This document shows, piece after piece, positions 12,563 through 51,435 of a stretch of DNA of 64,000 bases. Made by a program: the position numbers and the translations under genes. The DNA is taken from positions 70,699,093 to 70,763,092 of the forward strand of contig OX344763.1 of NCBI GenBank assembly GCA_947034895.1, in the 5' to 3' direction. The stretch is from Rhytidiadelphus loreus. Taxonomy: Eukaryota > Streptophyta > Bryopsida > Hypnales > Hylocomiaceae. The notes beneath the pieces are model-generated. The model made no database searches, was not told the origin of the DNA, and was given only the letters and a program-made list of their open reading frames with translations. Position 1 is the first letter of the stretch. Every line of letters starts with the position of its first letter.

Positions 12563-12638
12563 GCATGCTTCAGTAGCATTCTACAACGATAAGTGTGAAG
12601 CTTCACACTTATCGTTGTAGAATGCTATTGAAGCATAT
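12563..12638. repeat. Long near-perfect palindrome centred on AAGCTT
   Basis: Arms of about 38 bp meet at 12600/12601 with no loop. The core is CTACAACGATAAGTGTGAAG followed by its complement, with about one mismatch in the first 36 bp of each arm. A third copy of the arm (ttcacacttatcgttgtaga) lies at about 12722-12741, and the phrase 'atgtatgtgatgcgc' is repeated between. Such a cruciform would be unstable and may be a remnant of a foldback insertion. Confidence 0.8.
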
Positions 12639-13915: not shown

Positions 13916-14224
13916 CACTAGAAGAAAACCAGAAGAAATTGTGTTTTACTTCACAGAAACTACGTTGTATTCAACAAAAAAGTATCATCTAGATTTTGTT
14001 GAGGTCTCCCTTTGTAACACAGAATTTTGCACGTTAATACAAAATTTTGTGTTTTACTTGTCAAAAATCTGCATTTTACTTGTCAAATTCTGTGTTGAAT
14101 CGTTAGAACGCAAAATTTTGCATTACAAAGGGAGAACTCAACAAAATCCAGATGATACTTTTATGTTGAGTATAACGCAGTTTCTGTGAAGTAAAACACA
14201 GTTTCTTTTGGTTTTCTTCTAGTG
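13916..14224. mobile_element. CACTA-type MITE (309 bp) nested in the CACTA element
   Basis: Starts CACTAGAAGAAAAC and ends with its complement. The 3-bp flanks are ATG on both sides (13913-13915, 14225-14227). The interior is a long inverted repeat, so a transcript would fold into a hairpin. It sits in the intergenic region between the two element genes. The TIR resembles, but is not identical to, that of the host CACTA. Confidence 0.85.
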
Positions 14225-14961
14225 ATGTGCAGCATTTGAGAAATATAATCTTGAATTTACATACTGAATGTTGGGCTTCTAGCAAGAAGTACTGAGAGAA
14301 TGAAACTTCAGAGTATTGTTGTTACTATTTGTGGGCAGTCAATCAGTGCAAGGGAAGAGCACTGAAGAGTGCTGTCATGCTAAGAAGGTGGCTGAACTCT
14401 GCTTCGAAGATAATAGGTATATCATCCTTGTAGGCCGCAAGAAGTAGAAGAACGTTTTCTAGAGCAAACTTCTCTTTCACTGAAGTGAAAATGCCATTTC
14501 AGTTTGTGCCCGTATATGTTCTACAACATAGAAGCCGTAGTAATGTATAGAAAACAGAAGGCACAGTCTTCGTGAAGAGTATGAAGTTGGCATGTACTAC
14601 ACAATTAGCGTGTTTGTGCAGTCGTCGAACCCATAGAGAGCATTCCTATTGCCAATGAAGCGTACATACTACACGGACAGAGAGACATTCGACTTCCTAC
14701 CTCGAAGAGGTTGCTCAACCTATGAAGTGTTTGAATATGTGAACATGTACATATGTTTGTAGCATTTGTGAAGTGCCTTCAATAAGTGTACATACATAAT
14801 CTGAATGATCATGTCAGCACACATAGGTCAAGACATGCATACTGAAAAACATTTGAATCTTGTGCAGTAGTACATGCTGGGTTTCAATGTGCACACCACC
14901 TGTATGTTTAAGCAACGACGGTGTACAAAAGGAGTATATGTATCCAGCAGCATAAATCAAG
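14225..14961. other. 5' flank of the TNP2 gene
   Basis: About 740 bp without a supported gene, ending at the ATG of the TNP2 gene. It should contain the TNP2 promoter, but no clear TATA box was found. Confidence 0.35.
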
Positions 14962-29896: not shown

Positions 29897-30155
29897 TTGA
29901 CATTATTCCACTCAACACTATATTCAATACTTTGAGAGGTTTGGAGTCTCTCAAAATAATATTGTTCATTTAGACTATATACAATGAATTATAATGTTAG
30001 CCAGTTTAGGCGGGCAAACACTAAATTTGCTAGTTGTAATGTGCAATTTCCATTAAAATGAGAGTCCCGTGAGTGATGGAATGTTCAATTAGATGTATAT
30101 GTTTTAAGATAAATGTTCTAATTAATATAAATAAAGATTTTGCAATCTTCTGAAC

Positions 30156-30270
30156 ACCAAGTCATGAGCTCCACAGTTGGTTATAAAGGGTTGTTTATCT
30201 CATTGAAGCGGTCCGGGTTCGATTCCCGTAGAATTCGTATGAGCGCATGAGAGAAAAAACATGACTTGGT
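30156..30270 (+). repeat. tRNA-like (SINE-type) unit within an 11-bp outer stem
   Basis: A B-box GGTTCGATTCC at 30216-30226 sits in a T-arm-like stem (CGGG/CCCG around a 7-base loop). An A-box-like stretch (gagctccacagttggttata) precedes it at about the right distance. The unit is enclosed by ACCAAGTCATG (30156-30166) and its complement CATGACTTGGT (30260-30270). There is no proper acceptor stem, so it is not a functional tRNA gene. A tRNA-derived SINE or a tRNA-like retro-sequence fits best. Confidence 0.45.
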
Positions 30271-30587
30271 ACTGCTAAGTGAGCTTTGTAGGCAGGAAAA
30301 TTGTAACAACCAACCGGCCCCCTATCCAAACTTGTGACAAGTGCTTAACACGTTAACATAATAAAGAGTGGTTATACCCACTACCCTTTTCTTCAATCGT
30401 ATTACATTTTCAAATTGACTTTAGATAGATATTAAGCTAGTAAAATAACATGAAATATCCAGAAAAGAGTATGTGCAAACATGAAATAGTAAATATATTT
30501 ATATAAATTTGAAGATTAAAACATAATCAATATCCAATATATCAATTTAACATACTATTACTAATTTCACGATAATATTCCACAAAA

Positions 30588-33441
30588 TCAAGTATATGAA
30601 GCCAAGCTTTGGTTGATGACTTCAATTTGAGCTGTAGGAATCTTGATCCTGCATTCGCGGGTACCTCTTCTGTTCTGGGACTTCCATGCTGTCATCAAAG
30701 CGTTTGTTTCTTCCCATAGCGGTGGTTTGGTTTCATCAACCTTCCAACGTAAACCTCTTTCACTGTCCCATCCTGTATAGAAGTCACGAACATCCTGATT
30801 CCTTGATGTTGGACAGAAGTATTGAATGAGCACGCAATTCGGCTTCTCAGGATTACAATTGGGATCAGACAACACCCTTGCAATCCAAACCGGTCGACTG
30901 TCACCATCTGCGGGTCGGATTGCAACAAAATAGCCTTCAAAGAGATCCCGACCCACCCTAAAGGATGGTTGTGGGCATTCACGCAAAGGCCCAACATAGG
31001 CCTCATCTTCTCCAAACTCTTCACGATCTTCACCATCATCTTGTAACTGATCCTCTAGAGTTGCTTGAATCCGAGTAGTTGGCCAAAAACCGTCCTTTAA
31101 ATTAGTAGAAGCAGGTAATGGTTCTTGCAACGCCACCTTCACATCACGCCAGTAGTGTACCAAATGCTCATAGCGTCTTCGATATTCTCCAGTAACGTCA
31201 ACATTGCATAACTTCTCCCAATACTTCACAAAGCCAGATATACCTTTCAAAATGTCATCCACCCCTCTCATTTCCTTCAACAAAATTCGCAACGGCTCTC
31301 CACGGGGCCACAAACTATGCCCCTCCGAATCTTCTTTCCACAACTTAATACCTCTACCATCCTCCCCTAACCAATCCACGTTAGTGCACAACAATTTGTA
31401 CTTCATGACCGGACATCCCGTTGAATCTAGGTAGAACTTCACTTGTTGTGGTTTTGTGTGTCCAACCAGAGTCTCATCACCATCTACAATGCACCTGCAA
31501 TGAATCCTTTGAAATCGGGCACTTCTTCTATGAGGTGAGGGATAGTAGGAATGGACTCCACGTCCATAAACGACTTCATCAACATTGGGATTGTTGGAAA
31601 GTTCTCCTTTTTCAAAAGCATGCTCCATCTTCCAAACAACGCGTCAATGTCATCGTGTGTATGACCCACAATCATGAAGATACACTTCACGGAAGTTTAC
31701 ATACACTTCACGGAAGATCTTGTTCGCAACAAGTAGAGACCAAAAACAGAAAACATATCTGTTTTTGTTATCTCCAGTAGCATTGTCCATTTGCACGTTG
31801 AGAATAGGTGGCAAAGGTGTTGCTGGAACCAAGTTATCTGGTGGTGGAGGTAGAGATGAGTTGCACATCTCTGCACTCTTCAGCACCGCTGTGAATAAAT
31901 TTGTTGAGCCCGACCCTACAAACAACTGTCGAGAAGACGACTTTGATGGCAATTCAAGATCCCGCAATAGCTTTGCCATAGAACCTATGGTATAGTTTGA
32001 ATCATGGGGAAAGAGGTCCAATCCATAATGAGCATAACGGACATCAGCATGACCATGGGCAATCATGCCAGTGACAGACAAAGGCAACTTCATGAGGCCA
32101 TCAAGGTCTTTACTTTTGTGGGAGAAGACCGGGGAAGCAGTTTTGGCATGATCCATCTTGTCGTGCATAATTGTAAGGCATTCATGTGGAAAATTATGCG
32201 ACTGGTAGCGATTTGCGTAGTACAACTCCCTGTGAGCACGAGCAATAGCAAGATGCTTGTCCAACCTAATGGACCACTTCATAGCAGATTGAGATCTAGC
32301 AAGAGCACCCTTCCTGAGCTCTTTCAATTTGTCACAAGTAGCGCAACGAGCAAAATTGTCTCCTCGCTTCTTCACTTCATACTCAGAGAACCTTGAAGAT
32401 CGAATCTTGCTCAAGCTTGAAATTGAAACCTCCTTCAATCCAAAAGCAGCATTAGTTTCATTGATTGTTGTCATTTGACCCTTCCATTAGAAGATAGCTG
32501 GCAATATCCTAGACACGACTTTGTCTCCAGGCTTCAAAGTTCGTGTACGATGTGGCATGTGATCCGCTTCCTTATCAAGGATGCACTTCAAAGTAGCAGT
32601 AGCTTGTTGAGTGTGTTTTGTAGGCTTCACCAATCCCATATTGCCATGTACTGCTGCCTCCCGACCATCCTTCATGTATGTTTGGTAGCGATAGAACGTG
32701 GCCTCCGGGACCCCAGAAATATGCATCCATGCTTGCATGCATACAAGTATTTCTTCAATCATCACCATCCTTCTGCCACGTGAGTCTCGATGAACTTGTC
32801 TATGTACTTCAGTTTTCATAAAGGCTCTGTGCTTGAACGTTGAATTCCGATACATTTGTTCCCGAAAGGCTCAAATCTTGTCCCTTGGAAACGGTTGAAC
32901 ACAATTTTGGCTGCAGCAGACTTTACTAGACACCAAGTTGATAGAGTCTTAAGTGAGTAGGTCATTTGATTTGATGGCAGTCTTGCGAGGAGGATTTCTT
33001 ACGGTACTTGTGTATGGTCTAGCAGATGTTGAAGATGGCGGGTTTTAAGAGAGTTGCTTGCAACCGGTTGAAATTATCACGGGCCTCATGGTCATGCAAG
33101 CTTGCCCCACGACAATGGACAAGATTTATAGGCCAAGCAACTAAAGAGTACACCTGCTCATGTGAGATATCCAATTCTGAATGTGTCTTGGAAATGAAGA
33201 CTGCTACATGAGTGTCACCAAGAGGACCGTTGCTTCCCAGCACAAGGTCAGAATCCACACTATAGCAAGTACCTTCTGCAACTAGGACGCCTGCATTGTT
33301 GTATAGAGTAACGCACTTTGTATTCCAGAGACGACGCGAAAGTCCTTCACACACTGGAATGTCAACATTCACTTCTTCGGGAATTTGGTATTCGCCATCA
33401 GAGAAGTCCATATTGTCATCCGCTAACAAATCGGAATCCAT
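30588..33441 (-). pseudogene. DUF7869-like transposase-type protein, decayed
   Basis: Minus-strand frame from MDSDLLADDNMDFSDGEY. After a frame change near 33.02 kb come a cysteine block (VCCSQNCVQPFPRDKI), a helix-turn-helix-like stretch (WMHISGVPEATFYRYQTYM), then ATATLKCILDKEADHMPHR. The core has ILNVQMDNATGDNKNRYVF, followed after a frameshift by IVGHTHDDIDALFGRW. These D- and HTHDDID-bearing motifs resemble the RNase-H-like core of DUF7869 proteins. A C-terminal part (FEGYFVAIRPADGDSRPVW) looks like a BAH/reader-type domain. Defects: TAA 32951-32949, TGA 32873-32871, TAA 32489-32487, a frameshift at 31681-31716 next to a duplicated 15-mer, and another near 31490. Related families occur outside plants too; assignment is from memory. 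Confidence 0.55.
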
Positions 33442-33586
33442 GATAACTACAAATCAAAGAAGATATTACTCAGTCAGGAAAGAGGCAAACGTCAAGTTCA
33501 ACAAGATGCTTGAAAAAATAATCAAGTGAACATAGGTTTACAAAAGGAAATCTAGTAGATTAAATTGAAGAATTATTTCTTTGTCT

Positions 33587-34677
33587 GCAATTCAGGTCGA
33601 TAAGAGCTGAATTATAAAGGTGTTGATTATGTTACTACAATGAAACTCTATGATGTTTATAGACATTCAGTAATTCCAACCGTAATGTAATCAAGGTTTT
33701 TGCTGGTCAATTAGTGCTAAACTAGAGGAAAAATATATTTACTGGAGATCAATTGCAACTGACATCTAAGTGAAATACATATGAGGAAAATGATTTGATT
33801 TTTTGGAAAATGTATAATCTACAATATTTGTGTTCAATTCTTCATAAGTAGAATGTACAGTTTAGGTTGTTACCACCTGAACTGCACATAAAGAATTTTA
33901 CTTATACTCACATGTTCAAGACAAATAGATAAAAGACTACAACTTACTTGGAATAAAATGCTAAATAATACTCTTGGCAATATGACCTGATTATCAAGAT
34001 TAAAACTACAGTCATCATGTTTTTTATATTTTTGACACCAAACCAAAACTCTACAATGTCAACATTCACTTGTGGACATTTGCAATTCAGGTATTAGCTA
34101 CCTGAATTGCACAGTTCATTATTCAACTTGTGAAAAAAATAACATGCTCAAACACCAATTTAACTAGGTTACATCAATGATGTAAGGAGATGAAAAATGT
34201 CTAATTATATCAAATGCCAATTCATCCAGATCTGCTCATTAATTTTTTTTTAAATTATTTTTTCACGTTCACAATTATATATCAAAAGGTTGTGCATTTC
34301 AGGTTGATACCACCTGATTTGCACCCCGTGACCAAGAGACACACGTTTTGTCAAGGCTAGGAAAGTAAAAGAGTGTATCTTATGAAGATTACGATGTTTC
34401 ACACAAGGTGTCACCATTCAGGTTGATACGAGCTGATCTGCACAGCCAATTAGACAAACATCCGGTACAAGCAGACTATGAAGGAAAAAAGTATATCTCA
34501 ATAGGTTTGAAATTCACAATGCAAGGCGTCTTAATTCAGGTTGATACGAGCTAATCTACACAAGTCTCTAAACAATAATACAGTACTTTTCATTATAGAT
34601 ACATATCTAGGATTCTCGAGTGTCAAAATTATTTTATATCCTTTTCCAATTCAAGTCTTAGTGACATGAACTGTGCA
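33587..34677. repeat. Palindrome array 1 (seven copies) upstream of the minus-strand gene
   Basis: Seven copies of a roughly 30-bp palindrome at 33587, 33855, 34081, 34302, 34414, 34531 and 34646, spaced 110-270 bp. The best copy (34081-34111) has perfect 12-bp arms TGCAATTCAGGT and ACCTGAATTGCA around 7 bases. Others vary within the arms but keep the symmetry and usually end in TGCAC. Between copies the sequence is unrelated and AT-rich. The array starts about 150 bp upstream of the DUF7869-like start codon. Confidence 0.8.
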
Positions 34678-35022
34678 ATCAACAATTAATTGTAGAATGA
34701 CCCCGTATTTTTCAGCGGAAAATGCGGATCTCTAAGGACGATCATTGTCATCCGGATAACACAATATGCCAAACAAAATGAAATCACAACACTACAGGCC
34801 AATAACCCGGGACAAAAATTTGGCTTCCATTCCACTGGACCAAGGATTTACGGTCTTGATGACCAATTCAATTGATCATTTCTTGAAAGTTGTACTTCAG
34901 ATGGAGTCAAGTTCCTTACAAGTAGAATCAATTAAAAACGTTACTTGGTCACAAGCTCAATGACATTCAACACAAAACTTGACTGGCATCCTTGAAAATG
35001 CATGAATCGAGTCCATTGAAAG
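34678..35022. other. Spacer between array 1 and the minisatellite
   Basis: Contains a 65-residue plus frame (34766-34963, MPNKMKSQHYRPITRDKN...) with no recognised motif. It may be a remnant exon but has no splice support. Confidence 0.3.
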
Positions 35023-35146
35023 TCCGAGAGAGCACACTGGTATCCCGAGAATGCACACTAGTATCCCAAGAAAGCACACTGGTATCCCGAGAGAGCACAC
35101 TGGTATCTCGAGAGAGAACACTGTTATCCCGAGAGAGCAAATAGAA
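35023..35146 (+). repeat. 21-bp minisatellite, about six units
   Basis: Units of GAGAGAGCACACTGGTATCCC with few changes. Because the unit is 21 bp it keeps the reading frame and would encode the heptad REHTGIP. The frame continues to 35335 (ending SKDASKIIP), so the repeat may be part of a former coding region. No domain recognised. Confidence 0.75.
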
Positions 35147-35335
35147 GCCTTATTGAGCGCAGTAAAAGTCCGACAGAGCGCAAGAAGTTCGACTATGAGC
35201 ACTAGCAGTCCAAGAGAGCACGCTGAAGTGCATCAACTCCTCACTAGATTCATAGATGCACAAACAAGATTTTACAACGTAAGTTCAATAGAGTTATCAC
35301 CTACAAGCAAGGACGCCTCAAAAATAATACCGTGA

Positions 35336-37385
35336 TCGTCAAAAACAAGAACAGCGTCGACTGAAACTGGAAAAAAACCCGGAAATAGAGTGCAACCAAA
35401 GTATCAGATGAAATGGCGATGGCAGAAACACTGCCGGAGGAGGACGTCCCGAACCGTGAGGGCCTGAGAGACCGCCTGGCGGGAGAGAAGACGCGCGAAA
35501 ACAATTGCGGGAGATTTTGAATTTAAGAATTTCCTTCACAGCGGACGCGCATTTCCGCCGAAGATTATGCTTGCTACTGCGGCATCATTCCAAAAATATC
35601 AAGAAGCCATATTTCCGTAGACTAGATTCTCTTCCAAGAATTCGATGTGCCTTGCCAGTACCTTCCTCGCCGGATTCCATGCAGGACTCTGCTTTTGCCA
35701 GCCGGCCTGCGGTATTTCCGACTGTACTTTATTAACCGAACGGAATTTATCTAAATTTCATGAGTGGCATTGCTTAGACACCATCAATAATTTATTCTGT
35801 ACCTCCAAATGTGGAATTCAGGATTGTTTTTCTCACAGCCCCTAAATCATACATCTTTCGGGTTTCATAAAATTTTGTTTGAGAAATGTGAATCATATGA
35901 GGAAGAGGAGGTGCTCCACGGTCTGAAAATATTCATAGTGCCTTATATCACAATGTGCAATATTTGTGAGATTACAGTCCTTCCCAGATAATAAAAGTAT
36001 TTTTTAATTCTAGGTTTGCACTATCAGTGTGACAAGGGTCCAAAACTCCTCATTTCTTGGGGGATGCAAGTAAAAGACATCAGAAAGAACAAAGAAACAG
36101 TGTATCTTAACTGATAAAAGAAGGAACAAAAAGCTGGAAAGAGGGAATAAAAGGTCATGATGTGACCTTAAAAGTTAGTAGAATGCTTCCAAGTGTCTCC
36201 AATTGGAATGTCGTTGAGGAGGAATGCTCATGTCATGAGCATCTTGCTAGCTGGATTGTGCCTTGAGCCAATGAAAACACCCCAAGTGCCGCACACTAAT
36301 GTGAAATATGGTACTTAGGGCTTAGTAACTGAAGTTAGTGTAGGGCTCATAATGTTAGTTACGAGTACTCTCTTCTAATGAGAATGTCAATTAATTTAAT
36401 TGTTAATCAATACCATGGCACCATAGCAATGTCCTATGATCTTGAACAAATATTTATTTTGCTTTCACCCTGCCTCTAAATGCCTGAGGCACCAAATTTT
36501 AGGGTCCACAATATTTTGAAATTTAATAAAACTTAACCAAGTTGCTATTTTTAGTAGTTTATATTTTCAAAAAATTATTTTTCAAGTCTAGTTTTAGCAT
36601 CAAAAATTTGATTTTGAAATGATTGCTTATTAGAAATACTTATTAGTAGCACATTAAAAATTTATTTTTAAAATTGTAGAAGATATTTTGACAAGCCATA
36701 AATTGATTGTGGTTATGTGTGTTATTGTGTTAGGCCCTTTGACCTCATATTTTATAGTGACCCAATTTTTAGATTTGACATGTGAAAAGAAGATTGAAAG
36801 ACTTCAAATTACTTTTGTAGACCTAACGCCCTCATGGTCAAAGATTATATTCTTTCAACTCATAAGTGACGTTGTAATATTGTTGTGGTTTCTTCTCCTA
36901 TGTTATCTTTAATATTTCTAGTTTGATTTTGCATTAATACAATTCTAAAAAAATGATACAAATTATCAAATGTTTGCATTTTGTTAGTTTAGAACAAATT
37001 CCTAGAAGCTCAAAGAAGGCCTTGGACATTTAGGGGTTAAGAGAAAAAGTTTAGCAACTCAAATAAGAATGTACAAGTTAGTATAAAATCAATTAAAAAA
37101 AAGCACAACAATTGTTTTTTAATAGCATAACAACCGACAACACATAATGAACACTAATTATTAAGTATCCAAAATAACAGTCCTTCCGTCCCTAAATGAT
37201 CTTGGAGTTGGTCAAATAGTGTGGGATTAAAGTTGAAATAACATTATCTCTATCCATTTCTAAATATTTAAGATGAGCAATTGCAAGATCATTTTGGGAC
37301 AAAGGAAATATTTTTTTAGTCCCAAAATATCTTGTGATAATAAAAAAAAATATGTATACATATAGGACACCCAACCATAATATAG
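35336..37385. other. Promoter-like GC patch, then AT-rich sequence, no supported gene
   Basis: A GC-richer patch at 35.39-35.72 kb contains a 35-residue plus frame at 35413-35520 (MAMAETLPEEDVPNREG...). It could be the start of a former gene; nothing continues it. From 35.8 to 37.4 kb the sequence is AT-rich; 37014-37041 matches 22262-22291. Confidence 0.35.
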
Positions 37386-37740
37386 AACCTTCAAGTGCCC
37401 AGAATTGCAAGTGAAGACTTCTTATAAGTCATGTAGGCCTCAAAATAATATATCCTACTCCAAAAACATCTTGAGGGACTAGGAAAAGAAATAAGAAAAC
37501 CTTCAAGTGTCTAGAATTGCAAATAAAGGCTTCTTGTAATTTGTTGAGGCTTTGAAATAATATATCCTAGTTCTAAGAGACTAAGACATCTTACCAGGCT
37601 AAGAAAAAAAATATAATATATAAAACCTCCAAGTGTCTAAAATTGCAAGTGAAGGCTTCCTTTAATTTGTTGAGGATTTAAAATAATACATGCTAGTTCC
37701 ACAACTTCTTGTGGGACTAGGAAATAAAACTATAGTATAT
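37386..37740. repeat. Diverged tandem repeat, three units of 112-126 bp
   Basis: Units start at 37386, 37498 and 37624 with AACCTTCAAGTGTCTAGAAT-type starts, followed by 'tgcaagtgaaggcttc', 'ttgttgaggc' and 'ataatatatcctagttc...gggactagga'. Older than the adjoining 180-bp array and unrelated to it. Confidence 0.65.
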
Positions 37741-37860
37741 AAAAATTAAATTAAATGAAGACAAGATTTCCATAAAAAAAATATAAGAAAAAGAAATAGA
37801 AAAGAATGAATGAATATACAAGCTTGCATGTATCAACGACAATATATAATGTAAATAATC

Positions 37861-38562
37861 TCATGAAATTCACGTCCAAAAAAATAGGAAACATGTTGTG
37901 CAAGTTGTAATTATTCATTAAGTCACGAATCCAAAAAAATTTGCAATAGGTGGTCACTTGAAATGACCTTGAATGTCTATGAAAGTAAAAATTGAGGCAT
38001 GCACCTAGTCCTGTACTTTAAAGTCCAAAAACATGTAATCTCATGAAATTCACGTCCAAAAAAATAGGAAACATGTTGTGCAAGTTGCAATTATTCATTA
38101 AGTCACGAATTCAAAAAAATTTGCAATAGATGGTCACTTGAAATGACCTTGAATGTCTGTGAAAGTAAAAATTGGGGCATGCACCTAGCCCTGTACTTTA
38201 AAGTCCAAAAACATGTAATCTCATGAAATTCACGTCCAAAAAAATGGGAAACATGTTGTGCAAGTTGCAATTATTCATTAAGTCACAAATTCAAAAAAAT
38301 TTGCAATAGGTGGTCACTTGAAATGACCTTGAATGTCTGTGAAAGTTAAAAATTGGGGCATGCACCTAGCCCTGTACTTTAAAGTCCAAAAACATGTAAT
38401 CTCATGAAATTCACGTCCAAAAAAATAGGAAACATGTTGTGCAAGTTGCAATTATTCATTAAGTCACGAATTCAAAAAAATTTGCAATAGGTGGTCACTT
38501 GAAATGACCTTGAATGTCTGTGAAAGTTAAAAATTGGGGCATGCACCTAGCCCTGTACTTTA
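37861..38562. repeat. 180-bp tandem satellite, four units
   Basis: Units start at 37861, 38041, 38221 and 38402, giving periods of 180, 180 and 181. Each begins TCATGAAATTCACGTCCAAA and ends near 'cctgtactttaaagtccaaaaacatgtaatc'. Units differ at only a few positions, so the array is young. No open frame. The period is in the range of plant centromeric or subtelomeric satellites, but four units alone do not show that. Confidence 0.92.
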
Positions 38563-39822
38563 GCTATATGTAGATGTAAGACTCTAATTTATTTTTAAAC
38601 ACCTCTATTGAAATAAGGCTATTTTACTTTTTTAAATGCATACCATTTGACAAATTGAAGATTGTAATGTTTTGTTTTTCTACACAGTATAAGAGGATTA
38701 GTGTTGTTGTTCTAGGTACTAATTCTTGAAAAAATTGAAAGCTATATCAATGTTTTGGAAGCAATCTTAGGAAATAAGCTTTTAGAAATTTTAGGTTAGG
38801 ATTCTTTATGAATTCATTTTTGACAATCAAGAAAGATAAACAATTCCACGTGATTGAGATACTTTTGTATTATCAATATTTTAGTTGGAATTGGATTTAG
38901 GAAAATCTATCTAGAACTTTATGAAAGTGAAAGATTTGTAGTAAAGGTTCATTTTACTTCTCATAAAATTAAAAGAAGTGGAATAAAGTTTCCTTTCACT
39001 TTTGAAGAACATAGAAAAACTATAATGGATTTCTCGTTTCCTTTTCAAAAAAATAAAAGAACTACAATGTAAAACGTTGCTTTCACTTTTAGATTTAAGT
39101 CTTTAAATTGAATTGAAAGCACCATAGAAAATATAACCTATGAAATGCATTAAAAAATACAGTTGATGGTCATTATTGTTTCATTTTAGTAATTAAAGTT
39201 CAATTAAAGACATTATTGTATATAACAACATAAAACAATTGACTTCAACAAAGGTAATTATCGATTACAATAGGGCTTGGATTAAGGTAGTATGCTCTAA
39301 AAGCAAGTTAGCATGTAAGGGTTGGTCCACCTTTTTAATAGGTTATCATGTATAGAAATCTTTTCAATCTTTTTCAAAAGAAGGAAAGTAGATGTGGAAC
39401 CTAACACAAGTGGTTATGTATTTATCAAAGCATCTTTGAATTACTTATAAATTTTTAAAGATTTGGGGCATAGGCTCCTATTTGTGACCTCCCAAAATCC
39501 ATCTCCTTGCAACTTGTAAAGAGATGTGTAGAAATCAAAGACAATGATAGGTTCTTGCAATAGAAAAATAATTTTTCCTTGATTTATTCATTTGCTATAG
39601 TGGTCCGTTTAAGAATCATTCATTGTTTCTTCTTCAACTAATAGTAGGGTCCATTTGAAGAAGATGGATGCATTTAGAGTGTACTACCAGACTAGTTGGA
39701 AGGACTTTGAAGAAATGGAATTACTAATCATCTTCTACTTTTGTAATATTGTTTGAATACAAATTTAATACATTGTAGTAAGGGTGTCACACTTATAACA
39801 TACAGGTAATTCCAGTAAGATT
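38563..39822. other. AT-rich sequence, nothing recognised
   Basis: No coding frame, repeat or RNA gene that I can support. The 72-residue frame at 38854-39072 is AT-driven. Confidence 0.45.
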
Positions 39823-42524
39823 TTACTTCTCTGGAGGTGCAGCCAGATAATTTACCGGGTTTGTAGGCGGAAACAGTAGGAGTACTGTGGTAGGAAGTGT
39901 CACATGTATCCAGTAAGTTCCTTTATGAGAACAGGCAATTGCAAATTCCTTGTTTTTTACCTGGTGATACCAGCCCCAGCTACTTTCGAGGCGCATCTGC
40001 AGTCCGCATCCGAGCTTCTCTGCCAGTTTGCTACGCAAGGAATTGGAGCGAAGCCTTCTGCGCTTCTCATTGACGACAAAAAGGGGGATCACAAGAACTA
40101 TAGTGGTGGGGGCTTTTAGGGTTTGTATTTTTTTCCGCTTCGAAGTGAGGGTCGCGGAGCTGCAAAGTGAGTGTCTTTTACCTGCGAAGTTAGGTCGCGG
40201 AGGTGCGAAGTCAGGTCGCTGCAAGTGAGGGTTATAGAGCTTGGAATTTAGGATCGCCAAGGTGCGAAGTCAGGTCGCGGAGGTGCGAAGTCTGCAAGTT
40301 GAAAGGTACGTCCCGAGCACATCTTTGAGAAACGTTTTGTGTCTCTGGTTCGTCGTGAATTCAGTTTTCTTGAAGCTTCTCATGTGCTTGAGATTTTGTT
40401 TTTCTTGATTTCCTATATGAACTTCTGTGGTGATCGGTCTTGCTCGATGTCGATATTGCTCGATGTTCCTTTTCAGATTTGATTTTTGTTGTGTTTTTTC
40501 GAACAACGCACATGAGGTTGTACCCCTTCCCGAACCTCCGGAAGATTCTTTTCGATCATGAGCTTCCTCGCGTAGGCGGAATCCTGAGAGATGTAGGAAA
40601 AGATGTAGGTTTCTAGAGAACGATTCCCGATCTAGGGTTTACGGTACTGATGTTTTAGTCGTACTCACGTTAGGGTTTAGTGTGCTCATAGTTTCCCCTG
40701 TCCGTCTCCTATGAGTTGTGTCCCGAGCCCCGAACATCACCTTTCTCCGTCTCTTGTGAGAGTGAGAGTCCCTGAGAACTGAATTCCAAGAAAAACTAAA
40801 CTAAGGTGGAAGCATCCTCAGGTTCATGACAACTTTTTTTACTGTCTTGTTTTTTTTTGCGTGAGGCTTGCAGAATTTGTGGTGAGCTTCATTTTGAATG
40901 TTGGTAACGTTGAGTGTGGCATAAATGCATGCACATGATGGGAGTTTGCTCTGTCCCCTTCTCCTTCTAAGGGCCCACCCCAGCGTCGGTTGTGTTCTGT
41001 ATTTTATTTTGTTTGTGAGTTTTTGTAACTTCAGCTTTACTGAGCTGGTGCAGGTACCATATTCTAAGCGAACTTTTGGGAATCGAAAAGTGCTCGCAAA
41101 GCAGTACCGAGAAGCCGCAGCTAAGAGTAAGGATTTTTCAACTTGCTGACAATAGAGCGTGCTGCTCATGGTGTGTTGGTAAGCACAGCACAAACTGCAA
41201 GTTGGGTCTCACTCATCAATTTTCACCAAAGGATAACATAAGATCTTGAATCAAATACTGTAACTTACATGCTTTGAAGCAATTGACAGTATAACTGAAC
41301 TGCTTGGTTCTGGATGTACGTTGGCTGTCATTGATTCATGATCCCTATTCGTTTCAGGTGCTCGGCGCTAGCTCTTGAGAATTTGAGATTTGATTGGAAG
41401 CTCCGGTTGGCGTGGAGGCTGCATTCTGTGGAATCTAGCGGAATTTGTGGTGAGTTTTGAGCGCTATATTTAGGATTCGTGCTTGGAAGTGTTGCATTCA
41501 AGTAAGCGATGGGAGTTTCTTCTGTCACCTTGAACAGGCCTATGTCCTTGCAACTTTCCTGCTTCCAAAAGGGTGCTTTGATTCGAAGCACCTGTTCTGT
41601 TCTCTATTTCAATTTGTTTGTTAGCTTTCTTAGCGTTTGGTCTGCTTCCATTGCTGCATTGCAATTATTCTTTTTGGTGTCCATTTGATAGTATTTCTGG
41701 TACCCCACAAAATAATCTTTTTATCTGAACTTCAATTGCCTCTGTGCACCTAATTGTTGTAGTTAGCCCACCTTGTTAGAATGCACAGTCCATCAAGAAA
41801 ATAGCCAAAACAGCTAGTAAGTGTGAGTGTTCCTCCTTTGAACCCTTGTGGAGGTTTCTGTGGTCTTTCATGATACCGTGTGCTCAGTTGGATTGCCCTT
41901 GCGCTTTTCAGTGTTGCTACATACAGAGCAAATCTTTCTTTTCTAGTTTGTAACTGAAGCCTTTGTCATGTACTAGTTGAATGTGTAATGTCACCCACGC
42001 GCATACATCTTTTGAGATGTATACAGGATTGAAATTTTTGGTTAGAAGAACAATGGTATCTTGTGGTTTCCATTTTGTGCGTGGATTTCTTGACGTTGCT
42101 AATCCAATCATGGATAACTCGTTGTTTACTCGTTGTTTGTTTTCCCTAGGTCTCAGGAAGGGTCCTGATATTTTCGTGACTAGGTGTCCGGAACTGTGAA
42201 TGTGAAGCTTGAATTCGGAGACTTCTGAAGCTTGAATTGTGAGTGTGAAGCTGAATATGAAGTTTGTATTTTTAGTCGGAAGCTTAAGCCAGAGTCTGAA
42301 ATAGAATGTGAAGCTTGAATTTTGAGTTATTTGCTCGGGCTTGCTAGATTGTGAATGACGTGGTCAATACGCAGTTCTTGTTTTCCGTCCCTATCCGTCC
42401 CTTATTGTTCTCTGTCCCTGCATAATTAATAAGTTATCTGGATATTGTTGATTGTCCATTTTCTGTAAAGATTAATAAGTTATCTGGGTATTTTATAAAT
42501 TTGTAAAACTTTGCGTTGCTGTCT
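39823..42524 (+). promoter_or_regulatory. Promoter/5'-leader-like region with telo boxes and a duplicated intron-like segment
   Basis: GC-richer than its surroundings. TAGGGTTT (telo box, complement AAACCCTA) occurs near 40117, 40634 and 40672, an element common in promoters of plant translation and cell-cycle genes. Between 40140 and 40310 the words GTGCGAAGTCAGGTCGCGGA recur three to four times. Two diverged copies of one segment (about 40865-41055 and 41440-41640) share GAATTTGTGGTGAG and GATGGGAGTTT. Open frames on either strand (for example minus 40260-39823) show no motif. I read this as the leader of a lost or captured gene. Confidence 0.4.
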
Positions 42525-43416
42525 TGCGCGATTTAGGTGGGGTAGACCTGAAATGCACAAGATGTACTCTAGCATTTTAATAAAAGAAATAAAGTCGATA
42601 ACAAAAGCAACACAACAGAAAGATTTTTAGCCTTGTGTAATTCAGGTGGCATCAACCTGAATTGCACAAGCACAGTCCATTGCTATTCTAAAAATAAATC
42701 AAACTATAAATCAGATATTTTTGCTAAAAAACCTAGAACATAGTCAAAAAAAATAGTAAAATCATAGAGCTAGTGTGCAATTCAGGTAGCATAGACCTAA
42801 AATGTACACAAAGAATGTCGGTTGTGAATACATCATGCTCATCTGTCACAGACAAGAAGACACATTGAACCGCAATCACAAAAAAAGATGCTAACAACCC
42901 ACATCTAATTGATCAATTTATTTTAAGTGTACTTTAGAAAAAACTAACAATCCTGAGGTGTCTATGAAGCAGATAAAGCTGTACTCTAGCATATATAATC
43001 AAAAAATAACAAAAAAAACAAAAGTGGCATGACAAAGAGCATTCAAGCCTTAGGTAATTCAAGTGGCATCAACCTAAACTGCACAAGCATAGAACAGTGC
43101 CAATCAATAAATATATTTACAATATAAACTGTCTAGCTATTGCCTAAAAATCAAAACAAAGCCATGGGAAAAAAAGTTCATATTAAGGTGCACGTCGCTA
43201 GTATGCAATTAAGGTAGTAAAGACCTAATATGCAAATAAATAAAATTTAAGACTTATCCTTCAAAGACAAGACAACACATGCAAAAGAAAATACATCCAA
43301 AGATTCTAACAAACCACAATTAATTGATAATTTATTCATAAATAGACATAATAAAAAACAAATAAAAAACAAGTCTGAAATGAGCAATTCAGGTCGCACC
43401 CACCTAAATTGCGCAC
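42525..43416. repeat. Palindrome array 2 (six copies) upstream of the ParB-type gene
   Basis: Copies at 42525, 42635, 42775, 43053, 43201 and 43383. They have the same symmetric design as array 1: left arm TTCAGGT, right arm ACCTGAATTGCAC or a close variant, with 7 bases between. The copy at 42635 is the best (TTCAGGT and ACCTGAATTGCAC). Spacing is 110-280 bp with AT-rich, unrelated sequence between. The last copy ends 130 bp before the ATG at 43549. Confidence 0.82.
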
Positions 43417-44985
43417 GTGAATATCCTTGAGAAAAAAATAGGTTGTCATTCCAAGTTCCCTTCAACAAAGCTCAAAAAACCCATCAAAACAAAACCATGT
43501 TCATAGAAGGTTAGAAAAATAAAATGTAATTTCTATTTATTTTGCAGCATGGAGGACCAAGTCGAAAATCTAAATGCGTACTTCAAAAGGAGCACAACAA
43601 AGACTCCTGAAGTCGACGATGAGGATGAGATGATGGACGATGGAGATTACTGGGAGTTCAAGGACCCTAAAGAAGTGGAATCCTGGGGTCTGGCAATGAT
43701 TCCTTTCACGGACCACTTTCATTTTACTATGAAGTACACAAATGCTCAAATCTATATTCCAATCTCATTTCACGAGAGAGTGAAGGACGTCATCTACGAC
43801 ATTTATCCACAAATTCTCATACGATGTATCACTACGAAGACGGGGGTCCAGAGCAATGAACCATATCACTTCACCATTCTTGTAAACTCTGACAAGATCA
43901 CCTTCAACATGATGCCCCTTCTCAAGAGTTTGGAGCCCACCCCATACAGCAATGAAATCAAGCAATTGGAGAAGAAGGTGGACGATGGGTATTACTGCAA
44001 TCAGGATGGATCACCGCTGACCGGGAAGAGACTGTGTGAAAAAATACGATTGTTGTTAAACTCCTTCGAGGTCCTCAAGGAAAAGCATGCCATGCAAAAG
44101 TCTTTCATGGCTTCTCGCACAATTTCAGTGGAAATAGCAAGCCAAGCGGGAAGTCAACTCTCCGTGGGAAACCAAGGGGTTGGATCACAGGGGCGAGGTA
44201 CAAGGAACAAAAAAACTCCACTAACACATGGAACACGAGGGAGTCCCCTGGCGTCAACGTCTGCCAAAAAGCAAATTGATCGAACATCAGAACAATCTGG
44301 ACAAGGAGAGTTGAGCTACGCGGACATGATGCTTAATGTTCCACAAGCATTAAATACCGAGCGAAAACCAGATTACAAGGTCATGAGTGCGGTGTACCGA
44401 AAGTATTGGGAAACATACTCAAGCGCGTATGTTCTTCCTGCTGACATGAAGAAAGAACTTCCACTAAAGCAACTCATTCAAGCACCACCAGAGTTCAACA
44501 TACGGGTCCTCGAAGACAAAATGGTTAGGGATATGATGAACTGGCTTGTCAACATTCCTGACAAAAGTGCTAAGCAAACCCTCTGCGTTATGCCCATTAA
44601 TCAAGTGCAAAAGCCGGAGAGGTGGGAAGACATTACAGATGGTGAATTCTACATCATCAACGGTCAGCACAGCGTTGCGGCGAGCAGGTTGATGTTGGAT
44701 GAAGAAAGTGGAATTGACAGAGAGACTAGCGAGCAATTCGAGAAGTGGAATTGCTTCATTGTTTGGTCTGATAATGCTGAGCAGTTGTGGTCGATTTCAG
44801 CATACTATAACTGCACCAATCACTTCCAGGCGATTCAACCATCATAAGCAACAAACATTCTCGGAGCCCGGACAGTGTGGGTGAAGATGGGGAGTCCAAA
44901 AAATCCCAAAGAGGCAGCTGCAATAGGGATTGTGACAATTACAAAAAGAACTAAAGAATCAATGCGAGAGACAACAAAATTCAGG

Positions 44986-45175
44986 GTGTGTAATTCAGGT
45001 CCCTTAGAGCTGAATTGCTCAATTGTTTTTTACATTGTCATTAAGTGTGCAAATCAGGTCCCGTAGAGCTGAATTGCTCACTTGCTTTCTGCTTTGTAAT
45101 TGTTTTGCATAAATTGACTACATTAGAATTCTTTAAAACTTGATTATTGATTCTCAAGTGCTCAACTTCATGCAG
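44986..45175 (+). repeat. Two array palindromes inside P2 intron 1
   Basis: Copies at 44988-45022 and 45046-45080, both with TCAGGTCCC and GAGCTGAATTGCTCA. Together they make up much of this 190-bp intron. The first begins at the splice donor itself. Confidence 0.75.
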
Positions 45176-46528
45176 ACTTTTGAAAAAGCAATGCACCAAC
45201 GTTTTGCAATGATCGATGTCAATAAAAATCACATGACCACTAAGAGAAAAGGTGCAGACGAGAAGCTAAAACTCGTCAACAAACTCAAGATTATAACCGC
45301 ACCGAACGAAGTTTACAATTTGTGGAGCGAAGTCATTACGAATGCAGCACATGGGGAGCTCTTTGATCCTGATACCTTGATGAAGTTCAATGAAAAAGAG
45401 AACTGGAAACAAGAGAGCTGCTCCCTTAGCCGTGACTTCTTCAAGCCTCTTGGAAATCTCAGCTACAATGACCTCGAAAAGCTGGCAAAACACATCCTCA
45501 ACCAATCTGGACCCAAGCGCACTAAAGATTATCCAAAGGTGACTATCAAGACCACAACTTCGGTGCTTGACAGTTGCTACAATACAAAGGAGTGGGTCGA
45601 AAGGCGCAAATGGAAGCAGCTAGTAAAAAAAGCACTCCAAGAAATTGACCCTGACCTCGGATTATTTAGCACAAATGGTGAACTCATTGCCGCAAACTGG
45701 AGGGAATTCAAGCGAAGTCACAGCATTACAAGTGCGACAATGAATCTCCTTGTAGAGAGGCCCGGGGATAAATTCTTTGGAACTAGAAAGCAACTCAAGG
45801 CCAAAAACATGTCCGCGGAGCAGATATCACCACGAGCGGCAGAGTTCTTCAAGGTTTTCCTGCAGAGGAAAAAAAACTTTAAAACGCAAACTGGAATTGC
45901 ATACTTGAGACCCTATAGCATTGGCAACAACATGTGGTCGAAGTGGCCCCCAAAGGCGTAGAACGCGGAGACCCAAAACCAGATAATGCTAGGCGTCATT
46001 GACTTCAGAAGTATTCCAGGGGCCTTAAAGAAAGAGAAGTCCAGTATCGAGAATCCTTTCTTCAACGTAGTCCTCACCTCCATGCAGAATGAGAAGAGTC
46101 CTCTACTTGAAGATATCAAGTCCTGGCTATTTATTTGTGCCGACGAAGTAGATCAGACACAAGTGTTGGCATACGTGGAGAAAAATGCGGTCCTCAAATC
46201 CTTCAGCTTGAATTTTGCCGACTACTACCCGGCCAAAAATGAATGCTTGATGGACCTGCCCGCAAACAGCGCCAAGGCATTGAAAAAAGTTCTTTTGATA
46301 TTTCTTCAAAGTCCAATCAACAATATGAAGGCCAAAATACAAGTAGAGTTCGTAGCTCCCAATACGTCCGTATATAGAGATGCAAGAAAGTATAATGAGC
46401 TTCCATTTCGCATGTATAATATGGAGCTTAGGATGGAATTCTACCTCTGGGTAGTGCAAACGTTTTGCCATCCCGAATCAAGTGTGCTCTCGGTGTTTGT
46501 TGGAGCAAAATTGACATGTGCAGCGCTG

Positions 46529-46744
46529 GTAAGTAACATTTCGCATTTTAGGGCGCTCCCACCTAAATTGCACACCATTGCTCATAAATCTCTGCTTCAG
46601 TTTTCCTTCTTTTATTTCCGTTGTACTTCATTTCAGGTTGCACCTACCTAAATTGCACGCTATTTGAAAGATTTCTAGATAAATTCAAATCATGTATTTG
46701 AATGCTTAAATCACTAAACGCCTCTTCATGTCAATGCCATGCAG
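46529..46744 (+). repeat. Two array palindromes inside P2 intron 2
   Basis: Copies at 46542-46574 and 46629-46660. Both keep the right arm ACCTAAATTGCAC; the second has TTTCAGGTTGC as left arm. Confidence 0.7.
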
Positions 46745-47762
46745 ATGAGCGGTATGAATGTGTATGCATCAGTTCCCGATATTGAATCAGATATATGAAG
46801 CGACGCTATTACTAAGGCAATTATGTTAGACAAAGACGATTTCTTGGCAACAGGATATCACGTCGATGAGGCACAGTATCCCACGGTTCCGGCGTCGCAA
46901 ACAACATCAAGAACGATAAACAGAAAATCAGCTACAGGTTCCCCAAGTAGCCGCGCAAGAAAAAAACAAGTGGTAGTCAATGAAGATGACGAGGAAGAAG
47001 ATGAGGACGAGGAAGAAGATGATGGTCTCGAAGCAATGCCCACACCAGGTGCACGTTCATCGCAAGACATGTTGGGCTCATCAACTTCATCAGGTTTGCC
47101 TCCACCAACTGTTGAGGCTGCATTTCCACCCTCTCCTATGACTCGAAAACCCCTGGCAAAAAAAAGAAGGGTAGATGCAATGGATACCCTTGCGCAGACC
47201 TTGGCGTTTGTAATGCAGCAATAAGAAAACATTCGACTTGAGAATTTGAACGAACGGTCGGAAAACAGGAGGCTCCACGAGGAGTCGAACAAGAGGATCG
47301 AAGGCCTTACAAAGAGTTTTATGAACGAAACAAAGCAAAACAAGGAAATGTGGCAAAATTATATTACCGTCAAGCAAGCCACACCATTAGCAACGTTGGA
47401 TCCCGCCTGAACTTCCCAAGTTCTTCTTCTCCAAAATTACCCTTTCGTGTCAAGTGACGGTGCAATTTCCATTCCACACGACGTTGAAGCAATAGTGCCT
47501 CCTCTTCCTCCTGGAGGACCAGTGCTTGATCCTCCTCCACCAGAAGAAGTTGTTCAAAGTCCTAAGGCACCATCCCAACATGCAGATGCCACGGTAGAAG
47601 AGAGTGTACGTGTTGACGTCAAAACACCAACAAAGACGGCAGAGGTGGATGACATAGGGCATAACCTGCAGGTGGAAACACTTGAAGTAGTACAAGAGAG
47701 TGAAGGCGTTTCCACCGACGTTCAACAAGCAGGTTGTGCCTTGTAATCACTCGATGTCATTT

Positions 47763-47793
47763 GTTTCAGCTTGACTCGAGCTAATTTGATGTA
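47763..47793 (+). repeat. Degenerate array palindrome in P2 intron 3
   Basis: Reads TTTCAGCTTGACTCGAGCTA..., a weaker member of the family, inside the predicted intron 47734-47961. Confidence 0.5.
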
Positions 47794-49344
47794 CATAGAG
47801 CATAAATAGTAGAATCGTGTTTTGTAAGATGAACTTCTAGGACATTGAACTACTTTGTTTCGAGCTTGAAAACTCATTTTTGTATGACCAAACTCATTTT
47901 CTTGAGGCAGTTATATATTGATTTCTTACAAAATATGATTTCATATTTACTGAATCGCAGGGCTTGTGAGTTTGACAAATTTATCCGATCCTACCTCACC
48001 TTCACATCCGTCATCCTTTCCACACATGACAGTTGATGATATTCCTCGGAACTTTGAAAACGCATCACGCGAAGAAAAGAAGAAGGTCAATCCTTCTAGA
48101 TTGACGACAACATTGCATGATAATTCCCTAGCTACCGGTGAATCCTCCCAGAAGCAGGTATGGTTCGATTCATATTCTATCTATCCTACATTCTGTAGGT
48201 AGACTTTGTTGTTTGTACACATATAATTCTCAAGGATTTTGTTCTCTGTTATGTCGTCATGAACCTTCAATGAAGCCGTAGACGATCGTAACCGCTTCCG
48301 CATTCGTCCGTTTGATAGCAGGGATTTGGCCCTCCATCTCGTCATGAAGGATCTTCGGAGGTTGTCAATCGACCATTCAGGTCCAGGGTTGCGGAGAAGT
48401 GGGTCAATGTTATCCTGGACCTAAATGGCATTCTATGTGTCTGCGAAGATTGAAAGTCGAAGGGGTTGTCTCACAAAAAACTCAGGAACTCCTCAGAATC
48501 GCACTCTGCAACCGAACCCGCTCTAGTGGGACCCAAAGTTGTGTGGGTGCGACCCGATTGCTCCAAATTTCTTTCAGAGATAGGAAAAATTGCAGTCATC
48601 TCAGTGTAGAGCTCCATGAAGAAGTCCACTACTAAATTGATATGCAAATATCTCTTTCGAGACGTACATGAACCCTTTCTTATTCTTGGGCAGGATGCAT
48701 GTGACACAATTAAACACAGAGATAAATCAGGAAGGCTGACCACTTTCAAGGAGGCAGGGATTGATAAAGACTTGTTTCTTAAGAATCTTGATACATTGTT
48801 CAAGGGTTCCAGAGGAAGCTTTGCAAGTGACAATACTATTGTAATCGACGATAGCCCAACAAAACACATAACGAACAAGCTTGATAATGTAGTACTACCA
48901 GAGTCATGGAGCTATAGGGGAAACGGCCCAAAAGACACATTTCTGTTTGATGTATTGCTTCCCTGGTTTCAATGTCTGCACGCTTTTGGCAATCAAGGGT
49001 TGAAATCATTTAGGGAAAATGGTCCTAGAAGAATTGGGCAGCGGATGCTTTGCGACGAGAGGAATCAGAAGGAGTACGACAGAATTATGGATGCAATTCG
49101 TGCATCCTCTTGTACTAGTTAGGCTAGGGCTTTGACGTGTATAGTTGACATGGGACCAATTTGCCGTTTTAGCTCGGCACAACTTGATATGTACATTGTT
49201 GATTATATAAGTATGAATAAAAGTTCTGTTCTTGGTGTACAACTTCAACTATGCAGCTGGATTCAATTTGGCTCTAGTACGTTGTGTTTTATTCATGTTT
49301 GCACTTCATGACCTTTCATTTGAATATGGAATTTTTTTCAGATT

Positions 49345-49959
49345 ATGAGCACCACATCAACCCATGCTGTAGAAGGTGGCCTTGCTTGCGCAGCGTCCGT
49401 GGATTCTATTATGGACTATGGACAATACGTAATATTGAGCACTGGAAACTTCTTTTGCTCAGCGGCTACAGCAAATTCCACAATGGACTTTTCAACACAG
49501 CCTATGGATGATAACATGGTGGACAGTCCCCCAAGTGGATGGCCACATCCGCCACTATCTTGCTCCCCGTCTCCTCTGAGGTCTACAAGTCATCATACTT
49601 CTTCGTTGCCCTCCGATAGAGTGCCTCCAAGGAAACTTTACGGGGATATTGATTGTTCATTCCATCCAGCAACATTGAAGTCCGAGGTACCAGTGCGTAC
49701 ATGCCCGACACTCCCTCCTATTGCACCATTGCTTCCACATCAACGAGCATTGTCTGAAGGGTATCAAATGAAGCGTTAACATGGCGAAGTCTCTTGTAGT
49801 TGTTGCTCTATTCCAACATGGGATGCGTGGGAGCGGAAGTCATTGAAATTGCAGTGGCGTCAATTCAGTCGTGAATACCGGAAGATGGACAATGGATATA
49901 GTAGAGGACCGGAAATTTTGAAGGCACTGGAGAAGCTAAAGAGTAAATCTCACACATGA
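49345..49959 (+). pseudogene. Proline/serine-rich ORF of unknown function downstream of P2
   Basis: Starts MSTTSTHAVEGGLACAASVD just after a ttttttcag acceptor-like site and reads through one TAA (49777) to SKSHT-stop at 49957. The middle is rich in P and S. The C-terminus has CSCCSIPTWDAW and WRQFSREYRKM, which look conserved. It may be a further P2 exon or a separate gene of the island. Family not recognised. Confidence 0.4.
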
Positions 49960-50337
49960 GACTTAATCATATAATTCACTGGATTTACGTAGACCAATAA
50001 TAATGGTATAGAGATATTTTGTAGTTCAAACACATAGGCTTCCATTTCACTAGCACTTAACTGGAAATGTTGGTTGCCAATTTATTGCGTACTTGTAAAT
50101 TGGAACACATTAATGGTACATTTTCTTATACAAAGTCACATTTCATTGTGATTGTACATTTATAGATTACATATATGTACATCCATTGGCTCCTTTTAGT
50201 AAATGGATATTAAAAATTTAATAAATGCATGATATTTGGTCATCTTGTTATTATATGCACGCTTCATATGACTTTGCATTGCTTATTTTGTATTTACAGC
50301 GACAAATTTCTCTTCAATTTTTGGATTGTAGTGTCTC
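49960..50337. other. Right end of the 20.4-kb island
   Basis: AT-rich with 'tgtacat' repeated; no gene. A ttacag site at about 50299 precedes the junction. No sequence here matches the island's left end in inverted orientation by eye. Confidence 0.4.
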
Positions 50338-51435
50338 TTAAAACACTCATTTCAGTGGAAAACTCCCATTTTAATGAATATGATGTTACCCCAGAAAAGA
50401 AAAAGTGATGATAGGAAAGAAGGACTAGATGATGAATCAGGAAGAGACTCAAGAGTTTCCTCAGAGAGGAGGAAAAATACTGAGAGAATATCAGCCTCAG
50501 AGAAGAAGAAAGAACCCCAAGAAGAGGAGAAAGTTTCTCCAAGACTAGAAACAAAAAGAGAAGATTCACTGGGGACGGTCATTGAGGATCTAGAAAGAGT
50601 CCGAGGAAAGATAGACGTTGAAAGGAGAGTAGTCTGAAATGCATACAGACTACTAGGAGAGATTGATGTGTTTGAGCTTGGAGAAAGGATAGAGGATCTG
50701 ATCCGGAAGAAAGAATCCTAGAAGGCCCAGATTACGAAACTGACTGAGAGAAACGGGGTGCTCCAACAACAGTTAGAAAAGAGGTCAAAAGAGAGTATGG
50801 AGGTGAGGAAACTTTCCTCAGAGACAGAGGATACTCTCAAGCAGATCCAAAGTTTTGTGGAGATTTCCAAAGATGTAGTAAACAAGGCCAAGCCATTTGA
50901 CGAGGAGATCTACAAGGAAGGCAATCAGGCAGCGAGGAGGTCGATAACAATCCTGGCGGAGTACTCAGAGACAATGGAGAAGCTCCTATATAAGATCCGG
51001 GATGTTCTCCAGCAAGCTAGCTCGGATTTGGATGCACAAAAGGAGAATAAGTTCAATCCAAGGAAGGAAATTGCCCCAAAGCTGGACATCCTTGAGATGT
51101 CTCCTTCTACGCCTGTGAAGCCCAAGGGAAAGAAGGATTAAGAGAAGACCCCGGCGAAGAATGTTTCTAGGTTGGACGCTGGAAAAGAAGAAGGGTCTAC
51201 ACTCGGATCTGGATCCAAAGTCTAAACCTGGAAGTCAGGATCGGATTTGGATACATTCCAAAACAAAGACTTGTGGATGTCACCAAAGAAGCCGAGCATG
51301 ACAAAGAAGAAAACGACGCCCAAGCAAAGAAGGGAGGCGTCCCCTATAAGTCAACAATCAGAGGAGGATGAGTCACTAGAAAACTCAGAGCTAGAGGGTA
51401 GCCAATCGAGATCCGGTTCCGAACCGGAATCCAAC
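50338..51435 (+). pseudogene. Copy B: middle/C-terminal part of the split transposon-like ORF
   Basis: Resumes in the phase of copy A at TTAAAAC. It reads MLPQKRKSDDRKEG, a charged helical stretch (VIEDLERVRGKIDVERR), LERRSK-type coiled-coil sequence, AKPFDEEIYKEGNQAARRS and then a K/P/S/E-rich tail. Copy C aligns (AKLFDEGWLADKKPSGSRM). All segments share one frame through TGA 50635, TAG 50719, TAA 51139 and TAA 51223. The frame runs into the 4.4-kb element at 51436 and resumes at 55842. Confidence 0.6.

Follow-up and report, generated by a model that had tools for sequence, protein, structure and literature searches.

Covarying palindromes in a moss DUF7869 transposon as candidate sites for a fast-evolving protein of the same element

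The 64-kb stretch of the Rhytidiadelphus loreus genome analysed here (the window, on contig C3) contains a decayed copy of a large transposon with two divergent genes, a minus-strand gene for a DUF7869 transposase-like protein and a plus-strand gene (the plus gene), and short palindromes are arrayed upstream of both genes and within the introns of the second. Across copies of this element in the searched genome (407 Mb in 489 contigs), the two arms of the palindromes covary, and the site types diverge along with the plus-gene protein rather than with the transposase. Our reading, held with moderate confidence from sequence comparison, is that the palindromes are sites for the plus-gene protein, which would bind them probably as a homodimer and act in trans on its own subfamily, most likely as an anti-silencing factor or activator in the manner of VANC, a protein encoded by VANDAL transposons. 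The fast-evolving protein and the palindromes together suggest a private DNA-binding switch for the element's own genes.

Palindromic sites in the window and in the genome

A scan of the window for TTCAGGT-N7-ACCTGAA with up to 3 mismatches gave 20 matches, 17 of them at 33591-46652, and none of 100 dinucleotide shuffles of the window reached this number (mean, 4.36; maximum, 11). The scan reproduced in full the count of an earlier note on this DNA, which had recorded seven copies upstream of the minus-strand gene, six upstream of the plus gene, and four in its introns 1 and 2. A further weak copy, which that note put in intron 3, does exist at 47765, but the gene model places it just after the stop codon (47744-47746); it lies outside the three-mismatch set and matches the general family pattern with one mismatch. 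The seven-base centre of that note resolves into 2+3+2 in less decayed copies, where the design is TGCAATTCAGGTCG-nnn-CGACCTGAATTGCA, with 14-base arms around a 3-base centre.

Sequence comparison showed that the element is shared between the window and seven further motif-cluster regions of the genome. With plus-gene exon 1 as the query, we obtained 99 matches of 100% to 48% identity, two of which are second pieces of listed genes, so that the genome holds at least 97 copies of the gene (a lower bound, with 97 candidates scored of 1,026 first-look candidates). A DUF7869 segment gave at least 141 matches (141 scored of 1,445 first-look candidates). For 50 of the 97 listed plus-gene matches, a transposase match is also listed no more than 20 kb away, in divergent orientation in 49 cases, compared to a random expectation of 2.3 on average and 7 at most over 300 placements. 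In the copies examined, sites lie upstream of the plus gene, in its introns 1 and 2, and upstream of the DUF7869 gene; the coding sequence of 13 gene copies scanned at up to 2 mismatches (8 of them with a partial exon 3) holds a single two-mismatch site.

Genome-wide, exact palindrome arms occur in 295 places versus 45 for a reversed control, and the general pattern TYAGSKCG-N3-CGMSCTRA occurs in 1,377 places versus 0. We placed the first 50 listed sites of each kind relative to the genes. Forty of the 50 exact sites lie within 15 kb of a listed plus-gene match (random placements: mean, 0.43; maximum, 3). The remaining 10 fall inside island I11, which encodes the plus gene and has a transposase region in common with sister copy I25. 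Among the 50 general-pattern sites, 34 are near a plus-gene match (the I11 gene included) and 9 surround a further plus-gene copy, L083; three of the remaining 7 were examined, and all three lie within elements of 330-331 bp. In the sites examined, then, the motif is not scattered independently of the element family but clusters with it or its short derivatives. A host tRNA as the source of solitary sites was considered and rejected, as no tRNA was found in the four stretches searched.

Covariation of the arms and the protein that the sites follow

In subfamilies with a plus-gene protein of 48-51% identity to that of the window, the sites retain their positions and both arms are altered together, from TCAGGTCG-nnn-CGACCTGA to TCAGCTCG-nnn-CGAGCTGA, TTAGCGCG-nnn-CGCGCTAA, or mixtures of these. 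The same canonical type (GT, CT, or CG) is present in both arms of 160 of 242 distinct sites. Covariation was scored in 11 of 13 gene copies per intron (I25 and I11 being left out as duplicates or near-duplicates), using the first site where an intron has two; the rows are related, so that the cells are not independent events. Both arms were changed in 11 cells at intron 1 and in 15 at intron 2, numbers that none of 500 shuffles matched for either intron. The covariation score was equalled by 1 of 500 shuffles at intron 1 and by none at intron 2, and sliding the partner arm reduced every measure. Pairs changed on both sides were weakly in excess of chance at intron 1 (28 of 500 shuffles as high). 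The claim that symmetry is kept stands in that the arms covary across gene copies at the sites of both introns, but not for every window copy, several of which are asymmetric (TTCAGGT...AGCTGAA). Together with the excess of exact sites over the control and their clustering with element genes, this covariation supports the earlier inference that the palindromes are binding sites for an island protein.

As to which protein, we compared 30 of the 49 divergent gene pairs with the window copy. Identity in the plus-gene exon and in the DUF7869 segment was 96% and 96% in 9 close pairs (window included), 81% and 93% in 5 intermediate pairs, and 50% and 84% in 16 diverged pairs, a contrast exaggerated by the DUF7869 query being a conserved segment. 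The arrays upstream of the DUF7869 gene are of CT or CT/CG types in 6 of 6 diverged elements, as are those on the plus-gene side in 5 of 5 of these that were read, while at the left end 15-16 of the first 16 bases agree with the window family in each of the 6 diverged elements read there (the two sets of six have five elements in common). In a tree of 13 plus-protein rows, among which I11 is badly broken, the CT and CG rows group together on a single branch that excludes the GT rows. Because of the unequal identities, the conserved ends, and the agreement of site types with the plus-protein tree, we conclude that it is the plus protein with which the sites diverge, rather than the DUF7869 segment or left end. 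Of the two binders suggested earlier, the transposase therefore fits less well, and the plus-gene protein would seem to be the better candidate.

We infer from these patterns that the plus-gene protein binds the sites in dimeric form and that it counters silencing or activates, rather than represses. A dimer would occupy the palindrome arrays before both divergent genes and in the introns of its own gene, would act in trans on copies belonging to its subfamily, and would most likely thereby keep the promoters and noncoding DNA of the element open, as VANC does for VANDAL elements. Other effects of binding, namely activation, autorepression, or a role in transposition, are possible.

Several observations weigh against this reading. 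Some measures of covariation do not exceed chance: the number of further pair types was reached by 369 (intron 1) and 286 (intron 2) of 500 shuffles, and, at intron 2, that of pairs changed on both sides by 298 of 500. The intron-2 sites were matched between subfamilies by order, so that paralogous sites may be mixed. The placing of CT and CG rows on a single branch means that the correlated divergence rests on few independent switches. The site after the plus-gene stop codon is of CT type even in GT-type elements (window 47765, I25, and I62), GT/CT hybrids occur further right (positions past the stop in island coordinates: I25, 18778 and 20197; I62, 18936 and 20355), and the CG or mixed loci L032 and L035 have one GT half-site each. 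At least one more open reading frame (ORF) of the element could encode the binder, profile searches found no recognisable DNA-binding domain in the plus-gene protein, and single-sequence structure models of it were discarded at a predicted local distance difference test (pLDDT) value of 32. Finally, the observed/expected CpG ratio (I62 arrays, 0.82 and 0.87; window arrays, 0.38 and 0.42) gives no clear sign of methylation escape, and CpG content was set aside as uninformative.

The plus gene has three exons encoding 1,266 amino acids in sister copy I62 (about 1,270 amino acids); its splice sites were inferred from reading the sequence, and its exons are backed by tblastn with the sister-copy protein. 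The earlier labels "ParB-type" and "parS-type" are not established. Searches of Pfam, NCBIfam, PHROG, and PDB gave no significant match for the protein, the spliced protein hits no Pfam family at an E value of ≤10, and the window exons hit no NCBIfam model at the same cutoff. The resemblance to ParB comes down to one short stretch, INGQHSVAAS, which is like the box-II region and is the stretch aligned to phage ParB-like domains in a profile alignment; this hhalign comparison, made with shallow profiles, scored 14.7 against a shuffled-column mean of 13.7 and maximum of 23.4 (60 shuffles). These tests thus lend membership in ParB no support. For kinship with methylases the scores are not significant either. 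In 3 of 3 comparisons, the best local match of the C-terminal part aligned FAGGKLTCAA to methylase motif I; the scores of the two comparisons with shuffled controls, 20.6 (shuffles: mean, 16.2; maximum, 24.0) and 22.7 (mean, 15.3; maximum, 26.0), lie inside the shuffled range. Motif I reads D-P-F-x-G-x-G, which FAGGKLTCAA does not retain, and the N-terminal exon gave an unrelated 12-column match to the three methylases.

INGQHSVAAS followed by FAGGKLTCAA would nonetheless be the domain order of a ParB-methylase fusion, which we treat as a lead only. In a phage protein used for comparison as such a fusion (L071), Pfam finds the methylase only, and the first part matches phage proteins annotated as ParB-like. 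Viral contigs yielded no relative among the 46 and 32 pattern stretches checked by tblastn. It is conceivable, though we think it improbable, that the element captured a prokaryote-type ParB-methylase fusion that lost its methylase activity and now serves as a self-specific factor, loading at parS-like palindromes and spreading against silencing, with orthogonal palindrome-protein pairs in one genome.

Rival readings and related systems

The palindromes could instead be sites for the DUF7869 transposase or its transpososome, like the TnpA sites of En/Spm, an element protein with many short, subterminal sites. Evidence of this kind comes from short non-autonomous derivatives of the element, which have inverted ends of the same kind as the large copies (AACACGATATTCGTTATTTTGGGAG) and perfect 4-bp duplications (TCAA, AATT, and CTTC; 3 of 3). 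Each of the three keeps one CT-type palindrome, 53 bp inside one end, with a degenerate copy (2-3 mismatches) near the other. Such retention is also what a role in transposition would predict, so that such a role is possible. In the full element I25, however, the outermost sites (at up to 1-2 mismatches) lie ~3.6 kb inside the left end and ~1.2 kb inside the right one, and the DUF7869 segment (84%) and left end are conserved while the site type changes, so we regard transposase sites as unlikely. The resemblance to TnpA would lie in a protein whose numerous short sites are part of the very element that encodes it, binding being putative here; the difference is that the sites in full elements are internal, near both promoters and in introns. 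We are slightly more doubtful still of a host transcription factor or chromatin protein whose sites the element exploits. Upstream and intron positions are the usual places for sites of host factors, but a single factor does not readily explain why subfamilies that coexist in one genome differ in arm type, and the listed sites examined were all in or beside the element family or its short derivatives.

A reading without function, in which the palindromes arose passively through tandem duplication or form a nested repeat, would account for arrays that have grown in tandem (with a period of 122 bp in L041-L043 and of 148 bp in I11). It would not readily account for joint changes of both arms at corresponding sites of the two introns or for the same site types in two arrays several kilobases apart, and we give it little credence. 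Least probable of all, in our estimation, are RNA hairpins acting in transcripts, through splicing or small-RNA control. The core of the first intron-1 site begins about 8-10 bases past the splice donor in 6 of the 8 gene copies shown, and G-U exceeds A-C mismatches in genic sites (67 versus 45) and in DUF7869-upstream sites read in the gene sense (65 versus 27). Upstream of the plus gene, however, the imbalance is reversed (A-C, 156; G-U, 78), and the window arrays extend to about 1 kb or farther ahead of either start codon. The hairpin reading was rejected because the asymmetry runs in opposite directions in different arrays. As an observation in its own right, these unequal A-C and G-T arm mismatches, of opposite sense in different arrays, amount to a strand bias of decay.

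If the palindromes are indeed sites for the plus-gene protein, the closest parallel would be VANC. VANDAL elements are Mutator-like, and VANA is their transposase; the moss element differs in having a DUF7869 transposase and a 4-bp target duplication. VANC of Arabidopsis binds motifs in noncoding parts of VANDAL elements, including introns, and causes DNA methylation to be lost there (Hosaka et al. 2017, PMC5735166; Sasaki et al. 2023, PMC10398659), and the motif types differ by subfamily and the motif arrays expand by tandem duplication (PMC5735166). The two systems share an element-encoded non-transposase protein, a repeated motif in the noncoding regions and introns of the encoding element, expansion by tandem repeats, and motif types that vary by subfamily, here together with the plus protein (over few independent switches). 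They differ in the site itself, which is a 19-31-bp palindrome with covarying arms in the moss and a 9-base motif, YAGTATTAY, in Arabidopsis (PMC5735166). The likeness concerns the layout and types of sites, not protein sequence, and binding and demethylation, known for VANC, are putative here.

Comparison with ParB-parS is looser: there are clustered palindromes near the gene for a candidate dimeric DNA binder, with the INGQHSVAAS stretch, but no significant sequence kinship of the protein with ParB. Sola1 transposons make 4-bp target duplications, and the moss element resembles them in this respect, by description and not by transposase sequence. Sola1 DNA transposons of Physcomitrella are named in Table 1 of PMC9033089, and curated bivalve Sola1 elements average 5,445 bp (PMC10294476), against 18.7-20.5 kb for the moss element.

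The broader question is how a transposon can avoid being silenced and yet leave the remaining genome repressed. Among plants, our search of PMC turned up VANC as the sequence-specific example. If our reading of the plus-gene protein is correct, the moss element would add a further anti-silencing system, one that differs in its symmetric site, in its transposase, and perhaps in a protein of unrelated origin. With no fewer than three site types (GT, CT, and CG) in a single genome, it would then offer natural protein-site pairs, and exchanging sites and proteins in vitro would be a direct test of specificity and coevolution.

The element and its other features

The element extends well beyond the interval 33587..47793 that the earlier note had marked out (Table 1). 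Its ends are inverted repeats, AACACTATATTCA..TGAGAG or TGGGAG, with AACATCATATTC at some right ends, and all four large copies with both ends read have 4-bp target duplications (AACC, AGAA, ATAT, and, in the window, ACTC/ACCC with one mismatch). The DUF7869 domain (Pfam PF25273) was found in the ORF at 31650-32474 with an E value of 2.4e-22, and the ORF is longer and open in I25; the domain, inverted ends, and target duplication together identify a DUF7869 transposon. A PMC literature search returned no paper on DUF7869. The window copy is decayed in both genes, with the DUF7869 ORF broken and stops in exons 1, 2, and 3 of the plus gene.

Table 1. Features of the element in the window, with site types and short derivatives across the genome
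Feature	Position or copies	Strand	Remarks
Whole transposon copy, 20.5 kb	29914..50387		Sharp ends common to sister copies
Left terminal inverted repeat	29914..29938		ACTC (29910-29913) directly before
DUF7869 transposase-like gene, broken	30588..33441	-	ORFs 33019-33441, 32487-32855, 31650-32474, 30588-31628
7 palindromes upstream of DUF7869 gene	33586..34676		Starts 33591, 33861, 34086, 34298, 34417, 34535, 34650
Central tandem array, about 180-bp units	37806..38562		Related arrays in sister copies
6 palindromes upstream of plus gene	42527..43414		Starts 42532, 42641, 42781, 43058, 43209, 43388
Plus gene, exon 1	43549..44985	+	tblastn with sister-copy protein, 81.5% identity; one in-frame TAA
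Plus gene, intron 1	44986..45175	+	2 palindromes (44994, 45053); first core starts 9 bases in
Plus gene, exon 2	45176..46528	+	One in-frame TAG in window copy
Plus gene, intron 2	46529..46744	+	2 palindromes (46547, 46632)
Plus gene, exon 3	46745..47746	+	60% identity to sister copy; stops interrupt window copy
Decayed CT-type palindrome 3' of plus-gene stop codon	47760..47790		Start 47765
Third ORF, weak NIF/FCP1-like phosphatase domain	48616..49122	+	Pfam PF03031, E value 1.3e-4, 22.1 bits versus cutoff 21.8
Right terminal inverted repeat	50363..50387		ACCC (50388-50391) directly after
GT site type	Window, I25, I62, I11, I13, L041-L043, L050
CT site type	L025-L030, L039
CG or mixed site type	L031-L038, L040, L044
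330-bp non-autonomous elements	L080:303-633, L081:365-695, L082:367-696		Inverted ends and 4-bp duplications

Outside these features, a perfect CT-type palindrome (TTCAGCTCGATTCGAGCTGAT) lies at window 3410-3430, far beyond the 20.5-kb element; tblastn of the window found no transposase or plus-gene sequence near it, and it may be a short derivative of the element. The tandem units in the centre of the element, of about 176-181 bp, are satellite-like, and the array is ~7 kb long in I11 (8646-15787, L017-L018). A NIF/FCP1-like phosphatase is expected to carry a DxDx motif; at this position of the third ORF, the sister-copy sequence reads DLNG, so the predicted phosphatase is perhaps inactive. 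Elsewhere in the window, ORFs at 14962-18544 resemble by eye a CACTA-type transposase, for which they are candidates.

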